From Roseateles aquatilis (lineage in GTDB: Bacteria; Pseudomonadota; Gammaproteobacteria; Burkholderiales; Burkholderiaceae_C): a stretch of DNA of 64,000 nt. The position numbers and the translations under genes were made by a program. Positions 11,958 through 14,397 of this stretch are shown piece after piece. The notes below the pieces were generated by a model. It searched no databases, was not told the origin of the DNA, and was given only the letters and a program-made list of their open reading frames with translations. Position 1 is the stretch's first letter. The number at the start of each line of letters is the position of its first letter. Location of the stretch: the NCBI RefSeq assembly GCF_002205645.1, contig NZ_NIOF01000003.1, positions 124,001 to 188,000 on the forward strand. The letters are read 5' to 3'.

Positions 11958-12287
11958 ATGCGTTCCGTGGACCTGAAACTCAAACCCTTCGACTTCGCCA
12001 GCGCGGTGGCCCGTGCCGGTCTGACCCCCCAGGGTCAGCCGGTCAAGCCCGCCGCGACCGGCGGCACGAACTTCGCGGATGCGATGAGTTCGGCGTTGAA
12101 GTCCGTCAGCAACCAGCAGAACGAGGCCTCGCGCCTGCAGCGGGAAGTTCAGCTGGACAACCCGACGGTCAGCCTGGAAGAAACCATGGTCGCCATGCAG
12201 AAGGCGCAGATCGGGTTCCAGGCGACGCTGCAGGTGCGTAATCGGCTGGTGTCGGCGTATTCGGAGATCATGAACATGCAGGTGTAA
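11958..12287 (+). CDS. fliE: Flagellar hook-basal body protein FliE
   Basis: FliE joins the MS ring to the rod and is an early export substrate. I start at the ATG at 11958 (MRSVDLKLKPFDFASAVARA), which gives 109 aa, the usual size; the open frame extends upstream through the fliF promoter region and is not coding. The C-terminal half has NQQNEASRLQREVQLDNPTV, then LEETMVAMQKAQIGFQATLQ and VRNRLVSAYSEIMNMQV, the conserved FliE domain. It is a single-gene unit closed by a terminator at 12325-12355. Confidence 0.95.
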   Translation: MRSVDLKLKPFDFASAVARAGLTPQGQPVKPAATGGTNFADAMSSALKSVSNQQNEASRLQREVQLDNPTVSLEETMVAMQKAQIGFQATLQVRNRLVSAYSEIMNMQV

Positions 12288-12299
12288 GCGCGGGTGGCG

Positions 12300-13133
12300 T
12301 CAGCCACGTGCGTCTTCATACCAGGGCCGCGGTTTCTCGCGGCCTTCTGTTTTTCTGAACGGCAAGGTGGCGAAATATATCGTCAGCAATAGCACGGCGC
12401 TGGCAGTGAACCAATCGTGCCATTGATCGCTCGCGAATTGGGCGACGCGTCCAGCGAACCAATATCGGATGGGACCAATCTGGGCAACGCTCACGTTCAT
12501 CACAAGATGCAGCAGAGCATTCAACCAGATGTTCTGGTGGATCCAATAAATCCAACCCAGCAGGCATCCGCCGAGAAAATAGAACAGAAAGTGGCCCGGG
12601 GTCACGAACGCGAAAATGCAATGGAACGCCGCGAAAATGGCTGCTTGCGCCAGCAGCGCCGCGATGCACCACCCGATTCTTTGATCGGCAATCTTTAGAA
12701 ATTCGCCCAGCAGTATCTTTCGATACAGGAATTCTTCGGCAAACGCAATCCATCCGACGCACCATAGCGATGCGGGGACAAGCGGCCATCGAAGATCAGC
12801 GGAGCGATCGGCGTATGGGGAAGATAGAGCAGAAGCCAGCACCAACGAGGGCACGAGCAGCCCGATCACGATCGTGAGCAGCCAATCGCCAGCATGCGAC
12901 CTCGGTGAAATGAATGCGCCCGGCATTGACCAATTCATCAACTGGTGGAGCCGCTGGATGACCCACCAAGTTGCGAAAAGTGCCATCGGCATCATTCCTG
13001 TGACGACAAGTGCTCGTTCGAATAGCGACACCGGAGGGACCGCATGCGAGAGCACGTAATTGGTCGGACCTAGTGCCAAGGCAAAGATGACTTTTGCCAG
13101 TAGAAATATAAACAGGGTATATAGGATGCGCAT
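12300..13133 (-). CDS. CPBP (Abi/CAAX-like) membrane protease, probable bacteriocin immunity protein
   Basis: This is a multi-pass membrane protein of the CPBP family of intramembrane metalloproteases. I start at ATG 13131-13133, with GGAG eight bases upstream, giving 277 aa. All family motifs are intact: EEFLYR at residues 133-138, FAAFH with His171, and HLVMN with His209. In lactic acid bacteria CPBP proteins encoded beside bacteriocins act as self-immunity proteins; here the neighbour 67 bp upstream encodes a double-glycine-leader peptide, so immunity or maturation is the likely job (inference). The gene is visibly AT-richer than the flanking flagellar genes. Its last codons run through the fliE terminator, which suggests an inserted cassette. 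Confidence 0.82.
   Translation of the reverse strand: MRILYTLFIFLLAKVIFALALGPTNYVLSHAVPPVSLFERALVVTGMMPMALFATWWVIQRLHQLMNWSMPGAFISPRSHAGDWLLTIVIGLLVPSLVLASALSSPYADRSADLRWPLVPASLWCVGWIAFAEEFLYRKILLGEFLKIADQRIGWCIAALLAQAAIFAAFHCIFAFVTPGHFLFYFLGGCLLGWIYWIHQNIWLNALLHLVMNVSVAQIGPIRYWFAGRVAQFASDQWHDWFTASAVLLLTIYFATLPFRKTEGREKPRPWYEDARG
12325..12355 (+). terminator. Rho-independent terminator after fliE
   Basis: The stem GGCCGCG (12325-12331) pairs with CGCGGCC (12338-12344) around a six-base loop and is followed by TTCTGTTTTTC. It lies 38 bases past the fliE stop. It also overlaps the 3' end of the convergent CPBP gene. Confidence 0.8.
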
Positions 13134-13147
13134 TTCGTGCTCCGAAG

Positions 13148-13174
13148 GGCAGACAAGTCGAGGACTTGTCTGCC
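13148..13174 (-). promoter_or_regulatory. Perfect 12-bp hairpin between peptide gene and CPBP gene
   Basis: GGCAGACAAGTC at 13148-13159 is exactly complementary to 13163-13174 with a three-base loop. It sits in the 67-base gap between the precursor peptide and the CPBP gene, and no T-run follows in the minus direction. It could be an attenuator or an RNA-stabilising structure that sets the ratio of peptide to immunity protein. The structure is plain in the sequence; its role is inference. Confidence 0.6.
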
Positions 13175-13200
13175 TATCTTTCACCTCCGATTCGAGAGGC

Positions 13201-13392
13201 TCAGTTGTACTTTGAGGAGCAACCGAATATCAACTCCATATCCGACATGGAGCGATCCTGTTCAGTGACACCATCCATGTAGCAATCGAACCAGGATCGT
13301 TGGCCCGTGTAGCTGTAGTTGTCACCTATCCCAGGCGCGCCCACTTCACCGCCAGATACCTGAGCGATTTCTTCCTGTGTCAATTCACGCAT
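13201..13392 (-). CDS. Double-glycine-leader bacteriocin-like precursor peptide
   Basis: The 63-aa product begins MRELTQEEIAQVSGG, which matches the double-glycine leader of class II bacteriocins and microcins (MRELTxxExxxVSGG type). Such leaders are removed after GG by a peptidase-containing ABC exporter. Cleavage would release 48 residues with two cysteines (Cys37 and Cys58 of the precursor) that could form a disulfide, and no repeat or glycine-zipper run. AGAGGTG lies just upstream of the ATG. The next gene downstream is a CPBP protease. No exporter gene is present in the window. The mature sequence matches no bacteriocin I recognise. Confidence 0.8.
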   Translation of the reverse strand: MRELTQEEIAQVSGGEVGAPGIGDNYSYTGQRSWFDCYMDGVTEQDRSMSDMELIFGCSSKYN

Positions 13393-13572
13393 TTTTCACC
13401 TCTTGCAAATGAGCCAAACCAGCTTGGCGAATAAATTCTGCGTGATATCGATTGGATAGGGGTTGGGATATCTACTTCGGTGATTTGTGTGAGGGTGTGG
13501 CTTGCTTGTGTATAAAGCGCGCGTTGAATTAGTAAGTGTGCTGGAAGATGTGCAAGAAACTGGGCGTATAAA

Positions 13573-13602
13573 GAACAAAGCCACCCGAAGGTGGCATTGT
13601 TC
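13573..13602 (-). terminator. Rho-independent terminator after the YcgR-like gene
   Basis: Reading the minus strand, GCCACC-TTCG-GGTGGC forms a stable tetraloop hairpin extended by GAACAA/TTGTTC arms and followed by T-rich sequence. It starts 13 bases past the stop of the PilZ gene. It separates the flagellar operon from the bacteriocin-like cassette. Confidence 0.8.
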
Positions 13603-13614
13603 TGCAGCGCGAAA

Positions 13615-14397
13615 TCAGACCGTCCGCCGCATCAACCGCTCTCGCTTCTGCGCCTGGTCGATGAAGATCTGAAGCGCCCGCGCGGCGGTCGGGGCCAGCG
13701 AGGCGAACGCGCAGCCGACGTGGTGTGGCGCGCCATCGTCGCCCGGGGCGACGTGCTGCACCCGCAGCAGCGTGGTGAAGCTGACCTCCCGCTCGAGCTC
13801 CAGGGTGCCGCTGAGCTCCTCGCCCTGTTGGGGCGCCGGCTCCACGTTGGCCGGCCATTGCAGCGCCACGCCACCGGAACTCACGTTCACCACCCGGATC
13901 CGCGGCAGATCATCGCCGCCGAGCTTCAGCGCGGGGTAAAGCTGACCGGGCGACATCACCCGGTAAGCCTGGCGCCGCTGGAAGCGATACAGCCGCAGCG
14001 GCGCTGGTGCGCGCAGCACCTCGGCGCCGTCGCCGCGGATGGCCACCAGGCCGGTGACGTCGAACTGCAGCTTGATCTTGTCGAGGTAGGCCGTCGCGAC
14101 CAACTCGTCGCTGGCCAGCACCGGCGGCAGCGCGTCCCGCGCCTGCGGCGCTTCCATCGTCAGCATGCCGTGCGGCGTGTCCAGCGCCCGCAGCACCGTG
14201 TGGATCGCCGCGCCGTCCGGCGTCGACAACTGAATACGCGCCTGCGATTGCAGCAGCTCGCGCAGCCAGTTCATGATTTCGCCCGGCGCGTCGAGCCGGA
14301 AATCGGCATCGGCGATGTCGGAGGCAAGGGAGGGAGTCTTCAGATCGCTCAAAGGCGCGGCTTTCTGCAGGCGTCGGTCGGGAAAATTCTCTCGCAT
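13615..14397 (-). CDS. ycgR: Flagellar brake protein YcgR (YcgR-N + PilZ domains)
   Basis: YcgR-type proteins bind cyclic di-GMP through a PilZ domain and slow the flagellar motor. The 260-aa product has an N-terminal YcgR domain (about residues 45-135). The C-terminal PilZ domain has both binding motifs: RxxxR at residues 142-146 (RQAYR) and NxSxxG at 171-176 (NVSSGG). Genes for c-di-GMP turnover lie 35-40 kb away in the same window. It is downstream of fliS-fliT on the same strand and ends at a clear terminator. The start is not certain, because no strong ribosome site precedes the first ATG. Confidence 0.9.
   Translation of the reverse strand: MRENFPDRRLQKAAPLSDLKTPSLASDIADADFRLDAPGEIMNWLRELLQSQARIQLSTPDGAAIHTVLRALDTPHGMLTMEAPQARDALPPVLASDELVATAYLDKIKLQFDVTGLVAIRGDGAEVLRAPAPLRLYRFQRRQAYRVMSPGQLYPALKLGGDDLPRIRVVNVSSGGVALQWPANVEPAPQQGEELSGTLELEREVSFTTLLRVQHVAPGDDGAPHHVGCAFASLAPTAARALQIFIDQAQKRERLMRRTV

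Follow-up and report, generated by a model that had tools for sequence, protein, structure and literature searches.

Bacteria commonly encode CPBP proteases, yet a task is known for few of them. Published CPBPs include ones that serve immunity and ones that serve maturation (PMC9298176, PMC10482373). Both papers cite parallels for CPBP immunity, MroQ matures a peptide (PMC10482373), and SilX illustrates that a CPBP encoded beside a bacteriocin can serve maturation (PMC9298176). Among Gram-negative bacteria, a pair from Moraxella catarrhalis has been shown to be a bacteriocin and its immunity factor (PMC2761928), antimicrobial activity was not detectable for the double-glycine (GG) peptides of Neisseria (PMC11798529), and the leader of Gram-negative GG peptides has been quoted as M[R/K]ELX3E[I/L]X2[I/V]XG[G/A] (PMC9200625). 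In titles and abstracts of the papers that our searches of open-licence PubMed Central brought up, we found no description of a proteobacterial GG-peptide–CPBP pair, nor of the signature EVGATGMGDNYHYTG that marks the peptides described below.

The peptide–CPBP cassette between fliE and ycgR

The window, that is, the whole 64-kb stretch of DNA analysed, contains a peptide gene of 63 codons for amino acids (13201..13392, minus strand) encoding a GG leader and a two-cysteine core. The leader, MRELTQEEIAQVSGG (13348..13392, minus strand), would be cut after the GG to leave an acidic core (net -5) of 48 residues, its two cysteines standing at positions 22 and 43 of the core. The predicted mature peptide opens with 15 residues, EVGAPGIGDNYSYTG (13303..13347, minus strand), that carry the family signature. 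A Shine-Dalgarno-like AAGAGGTG, read from the sequence (13397..13404, minus strand), ends 4 bases 5' of the ATG. A short precursor with a GG leader is a trait of class II bacteriocins and class II microcins, and by eye the leader fits the motif of PMC9200625.

That so short an ORF is no gene is scarcely credible, and is already contradicted because the ORF is conserved; its short length, and nothing else, speaks for that reading. On a 15-column leader matrix built without it, the window leader scored 42.1, well over the maxima of 10.1–18.4 obtained when the 64 kb were shuffled 20 times at constant base composition. Among stop-to-stop frames of the window, the runner-up and sole other frame above 15 (44615, minus strand, score 21.1) was rejected as a chance match lying within a 531-aa frame. 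Homologues exist, the closest being that at locus L019 of Mitsuaria chitosanitabida with 71% identity over 63 residues, and the two genes differ at 16, 9 and 33 sites by codon position, a bias to third positions (33 of 58, binomial p 2e-4). ORF, leader score and relatives thus agree with the first-pass annotation, which had described a peptide of 63 aa, with a GG leader and a core of 48 residues including two cysteines, upstream of a CPBP gene. The peptide had no match over the cut-off in Pfam, NCBIfam, PHROGs or PADLOC; the one described bacteriocin family to give a score was TIGR03949, at 12.7 bits against a cut-off of 21.5 and over the leader, and a sequence search of solved structures with the peptide profile returned two chance matches only (E 0.23 and 0.35).

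The gene for a CPBP (Rce1-like) intramembrane protease of 277 aa, our proposed immunity protein, lies downstream on the same strand (12300..13133, minus strand), with 67 bp from the peptide stop to its ATG. Its longest ORF spans 12300..13184 (minus strand), with a probable start at ATG 13133 and the stop at 12300. The product matches PF02517 with E 2.6e-13 and 50.5 bits, over the curated cut-off of 22.4, and has EEFLYR at 133, FAAFH ending in H171 and HLVMN from H209, so that the motifs that define membership (EExxxR, FxxxH and a second His) are all present. Residues E133, E134, R138, H171 and H209 were invariant in an 11-row CPBP alignment. The annotation's "all catalytic residues" is a reading of motifs and not of activity; the window CPBP is a predicted protease with intact motifs. 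It scored 36.2 bits against the NCBIfam MroQ equivalog, below the cut-off of 270, and did not reach the Myxosortase / MrtJ models NF033192 (32.3 bits, cut-off 75) and NF040914 (22.3 bits, cut-off 100). A sequence search of solved structures with the CPBP profile gave none at E 0.01.

Between the two genes lies a perfect 12-bp inverted repeat (13148..13174), a possible element of expression control, and the intergenic fold has a z of -4.8 against base shuffles. As a family trait the intergenic hairpin was rejected: elsewhere it is weaker or missing, and the eight further pairs whose gap is long enough for folding gave z values between -2.7 and +2.0. Terminator-like hairpins were found between ycgR and the peptide gene (13580..13595, scored on both strands) and 3' of fliE within the CPBP 3' end (12323..12346, plus strand). 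A sigma-70 promoter scan found none.

Outside the cassette, the left neighbour is fliE (11964..12287, plus strand, start provisional; PF02049 E 1.2e-27) and the right neighbour is ycgR, with PilZN and PilZ domains (13615..14397, minus strand; PF07317 and PF07238). Pfam thus confirms both genes between which the annotation had placed AT-richer DNA, and the GC content bears it out, at 0.50–0.56 in the cassette against 0.62–0.71 in adjoining windows. FliE was detected in 15 of the 16 genus genomes. Measured stop to stop, the fliE–ycgR gap is 11–174 bp in 11 cassette-free genus genomes and, filled by a cassette, 1327 bp in the window genome and 1343 bp in a second genome, G003; genomes G001 and G014 fall outside this count, as the 1.5 kb fetched from each did not include ycgR. 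Between the window genome and G003, dS was 1.36 for the CPBP gene against 0.43 for fliE, 0.49 for ycgR and 0.32 for fliF (it is not computable for the short peptide gene), so the cassettes at fliE–ycgR have a history separate from that of their flanks, whether by separate acquisition, by exchange or by much faster change. The cassette is real and conserved, and probably mobile. As a separate observation, other DNA occupies the gap 3' of fliE in G001 (L140) and G014 (L142), and at L140 it includes a minus-strand ORF of 288 aa whose product looks secreted. Insertions may favour this gap.

A family of peptides with two kinds of partner

The peptide query matched in 6 of the 16 genus genomes (E up to 0.1). 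Wider searches with the peptide profile covered 399 family genomes and 399 of the order, scoring at most 15 candidates per genome, which makes their absences soft: at least 6 family genomes matched (the window genome, G003, G168, G249 and, weakly, G260 and G342, the last two rejected on reading), as did at least 1 in the order sample, the window genome. A plasmid search gave zero matches for the peptide, the CPBP or the partner encoded at C43 (see below), and 91 stretches of viral contigs fitted the peptide pattern, none of them a relative. Weak peptide hits at L028, L029, L038, L041 and L057 were rejected on reading the loci, and those at L004, L042, L043 and L044 from the hit tables (long frames, E 0.3 or worse).

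Nine peptides make up type A: the window peptide, a second one in the same genome (C43), and one each in G001, G002, G003 (by its coordinates the same record as L019), G013, G014, G168 and G249. Seven belong to the genus and two (G168, G249) to another genus of the family. Over their 36 pairs, mean identity is 83% in the first 15 mature residues, 22% in the leader and 31% in the rest, and the mature N-terminus EVGATGMGDNYHYTG is common to all nine, with few changes after the GG. The core is acidic in every one of them, with a net charge between -2 and -7. A CPBP gene comes next downstream on the same strand, at 4–208 bp, for eight of them; the ninth, at C43, is followed by a partner with a signal-like N-terminus and no CPBP. 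Type B, with the signature GGDAAxTRxxGxNSWGE, was reached through weak peptide hits and then searched for in the genus only. It has three members: in G006 and in G007 the peptide gene has a CPBP gene directly 3' of it, and in the window genome (C44) it has a partner 33% identical to that at C43. Exactly two core cysteines occur in all 10 CPBP-paired peptides of types A and B.

The first-pass annotation was to fall if relatives lacked the leader ORF beside their CPBP genes; in fact 10 of 12 type A and B peptides (8/9 and 2/3) are paired with a CPBP, and the pair, which it had thought unusual, is less so, being a recurring module in the genus. Cassettes of this kind turn up here and there across this group of soil bacteria. 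Since each type also has a member beside an unrelated partner that looks secreted, the CPBP is no fixed requirement of the peptide. For the secreted partners (C43, C44) there were zero family matches over the cut-off, and a search of solved structures with their profile gave none at E 1; their relatives number four genes in 3 of 399 family genomes. An assignment as ClpP-like (COG3904) was dropped, with no library support, and we describe these proteins as secreted-looking only.

Type C, with the signature GGD[SR]WAGT[PS][ED]GRAP, has four members: one in the window genome (C12), one in G005 and two in G007. In both G005 and G007 a type C peptide gene stands beside a double-domain CPBP gene in divergent orientation, and the second G007 peptide lies directly 3' of a C39 transporter gene. 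Double-domain CPBPs occur in G002, G005, G007 and G011, and all four have a C39 match some 4–10 kb away. They are frames of 548–557 aa with two CPBP domains, at L109 (G011, 552 aa), L111 (G005, 550 aa), L113 (G007) and L114 (G002). At C12 (L125, 6234–7917), the type C peptide DSWAGTPEGRAP is followed by a 391-aa protein of unnamed kind, with no CPBP; this protein is perhaps a third kind of partner.

PF02517 gave 74 domain matches in 15 of the 16 genus genomes. We built a CPBP tree of 66 rows (68 recovered frames minus two), 64 from the genus plus those of G168 and G249; it leaves out six matched genus genes (L106, L107, L108, L110, L112 and L117), around which a GG scan found no convincing GG peptide. 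A branch divides ten CPBPs paired with type A or B peptides, together with three unpaired ones, from the other rows; its support, 95/79, is under the starred level of the tree tool, and some long branches make placements unsure. A GG peptide adjoins 10 of the 13 CPBPs in this lineage versus 2 of the 53 other rows (Fisher p 8e-8, which is optimistic because the rows are related); the two exceptions, seen in scanned flanks, are the type C double-domain CPBPs of G005 and G007. The scan was strict, missing the G014 peptide, and flank sizes varied by locus. Partners of types A and B form separate subgroups (99/98 and 100/98), and end branches in the lineage run from 0.12 to 2.04, with 12 of 13 above the tree median of 0.15. 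On this tree, the peptide-paired CPBPs form their own group.

Export, immunity and maturation

No C39 transporter lies within the cassette. The annotation's phrase "without a local exporter" is thus right for the cassette, and the search elsewhere in the genome that it proposed returned seven C39-family matches, of which three keep the motif ECGLAC and four lack it. Each of these three motif-intact transporters has a GG-leader ORF near it, and the nearest is 254 kb off on the same contig as the cassette. The clearest locus (L048, 3565–7836, in C23 of the window genome) has four co-directional genes, for an HlyD-like protein (assigned by eye), a 130-aa GG peptide MRDLTFDEIACVSGG, a 101-aa protein and a C39 ABC transporter. 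Two of the genome's three exporter-linked leaders end in VSGG, as the window leader does, and the third in VGGG. In G003, leaders at exporter locus L200 end in DQVHGG, to be compared with DRVHGG in the cassette leader of that genome; a second exporter locus there, L199, has other endings. The likeness of leader endings fits export in trans only loosely. Small ORFs also stand beside C39-family matches at L199 (G003), L201 (G001), L208 (G009), L209 (G014) and L212 (G007), with leaders of the form xELTxEExLxVAGG and then a very short PQVxNDG-like part. They form tandem runs in 4 of the 5 loci, and at L199 a single ORF has several GG-PQVxND units, polyprotein-like for tiny peptides.

Directly observed are the pairing of the two genes and its repeated occurrence, the inserted cassette, CPBPs that keep their motifs and form a group of their own, and partner genes that stand without peptides. 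We think it rather likely that the cassette encodes an exported microcin-like peptide with the CPBP as its immunity protein, in preference to a maturation protease. It would be a small toxin–immunity module of the class II bacteriocin or microcin sort without its own exporter. The peptide would be synthesised with its GG leader, and a resident ABC transporter with a C39 peptidase would then cut it and export it in trans. Its mature form would consist of the conserved 15-residue N-terminus and a variable C-terminal part, whose two cysteines would probably form one disulfide, and is presumed toxic. The CPBP would protect the producer from within the inner membrane, most likely by cutting or holding the cognate peptide on its arrival there, a form of proteolytic immunity.

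We consider it fairly unlikely that the CPBP is instead a maturation protease cutting the precursor at the membrane, as MroQ does AgrD and perhaps SilX does SilCR, with the cut perhaps lying beside the conserved N-terminal stretch and freeing a signal peptide or an active C-terminal part. Such precedents are published (PMC9298176, PMC10482373), the motifs are intact in 11/11 aligned rows, types A and B pair with distinct CPBP subgroups, and the conserved stretch right after the GG could serve as a recognition site; against this, C39 proteins, the usual GG peptidases, were matched in 16/16 genus genomes, and reading the ORF lists around the window cassette brought no sensor gene to notice.

Three CPBPs of the lineage have no peptide of their own: one in the window genome (C23), which sits at the DedA-gene site, as do the pairs of G001, G002 and G014, and has no GG peptide in the preceding 246 bp; one in G005 (C29), upstream of which lies the decayed end of a type B peptide (…LCLDFALKYGNDF); and the second CPBP of G006, in tandem with a complete pair. 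Two of the four secreted-partner genes also lack a peptide, and one of these two, in G003 (C26), keeps a leader remnant. Partner genes without a peptide thus number 5 of 17 and peptides without a partner 0 of 12 (one-sided Fisher p 0.052), a borderline asymmetry in which one orphan, that of G006, stands in tandem with a complete pair and divergent peptides may have been missed by the searches. Immunity leads because a protease needed for maturation only should not outlive its peptide, as these CPBPs do, and because a peptide that required a CPBP would not be expected beside a different partner, as happens in both type A and type B. The bacteriocin–immunity reading of the first-pass annotation is therefore favoured, through the peptide-less partners and the two partner kinds per peptide type; the acidic core, the published maturing CPBPs and the Neisseria GG peptides, for which antimicrobial activity was not detectable, weigh on the other side. 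Many bacteriocins are cationic, and the acidic core is unlike these.

In a further account the peptide acts on its own population, through autolysis or as a developmental signal, in the manner of the Neisseria Nap peptides, and the CPBP limits the effect. A betaproteobacterial GG peptide with a proposed immunity protein is a precedent (PMC11798529), but Naps are cationic with a local C39 peptidase, whereas the cores here are acidic with none local, and competition would explain the patchy presence and the distinct CPBP lineage no less well; we regard this account as improbable. Quite improbable, too, is that the CPBP is a receptor, a regulator or an unrelated membrane protease, adjacent through shared transfer only. 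Some CPBPs are indeed receptors or non-proteolytic (PMC9298176, PMC10482373), but the adjacency recurs at unlinked sites, including fliE–ycgR and the DedA-gene site.

We tentatively propose, at somewhat less than even confidence, that Mitsuaria and relatives possess modular, exporter-less secreted peptides with a shared leader, a few fixed mature N-termini, variable two-cysteine C-termini, resident C39 exporters and an exchangeable cognate partner. This partner would be either a member of a dedicated, fast-evolving CPBP lineage, conferring proteolytic immunity, or a small secreted protein. If true, this would mean CPBP-based immunity in Gram-negative bacteria in a layout like that of polymorphic toxins. 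With the natural peptide–CPBP pairs and the peptide-less CPBPs, whether the CPBP serves immunity or maturation can be tested directly in environmental bacteria. The family also points to short, presumably exported peptides that the family libraries used do not name and that would depend on exporters encoded elsewhere.

Comparison with described systems

Several described systems share part of this arrangement. The CPBP (Abi) self-immunity systems of class II bacteriocins in lactic acid bacteria, such as SkkI, likewise place a GG peptide beside a motif-intact CPBP (PMC10482373, PMC9298176). The cassette differs from these in its Gram-negative host, its acidic core and the lack of a local exporter or regulator, and its family differs in the fixed 15-residue mature N-terminus and the second, unrelated kind of partner. 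McbC–McbI of Moraxella catarrhalis and other Gram-negative GG bacteriocins have, like the cassette, a GG peptide gene followed by a partner gene; the McbC–McbI operon also includes HlyD-like and C39 ABC genes, of which the cassette has none, and McbI is a 74-aa immunity factor that is not a CPBP, unlike the partner here (PMC2761928). In MroQ–AgrD and SilX–SilCR a CPBP is again tied to a short exported peptide (PMC10482373, PMC9298176), but there it matures a signal, and the window CPBP falls below the MroQ equivalog score. The Nap peptides of Neisseria are, like the cassette peptide, GG peptides of betaproteobacteria, and were horizontally acquired, as the cassette probably was; they differ in being cationic, in having a local C39 peptidase and export channel and in self-directed lysis, and the main text names no CPBP (PMC11798529). 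The cassette is probably a variation on the pairing of bacteriocin and CPBP, in a host group where it was not expected, with a conserved mature N-terminus and exchangeable partners.
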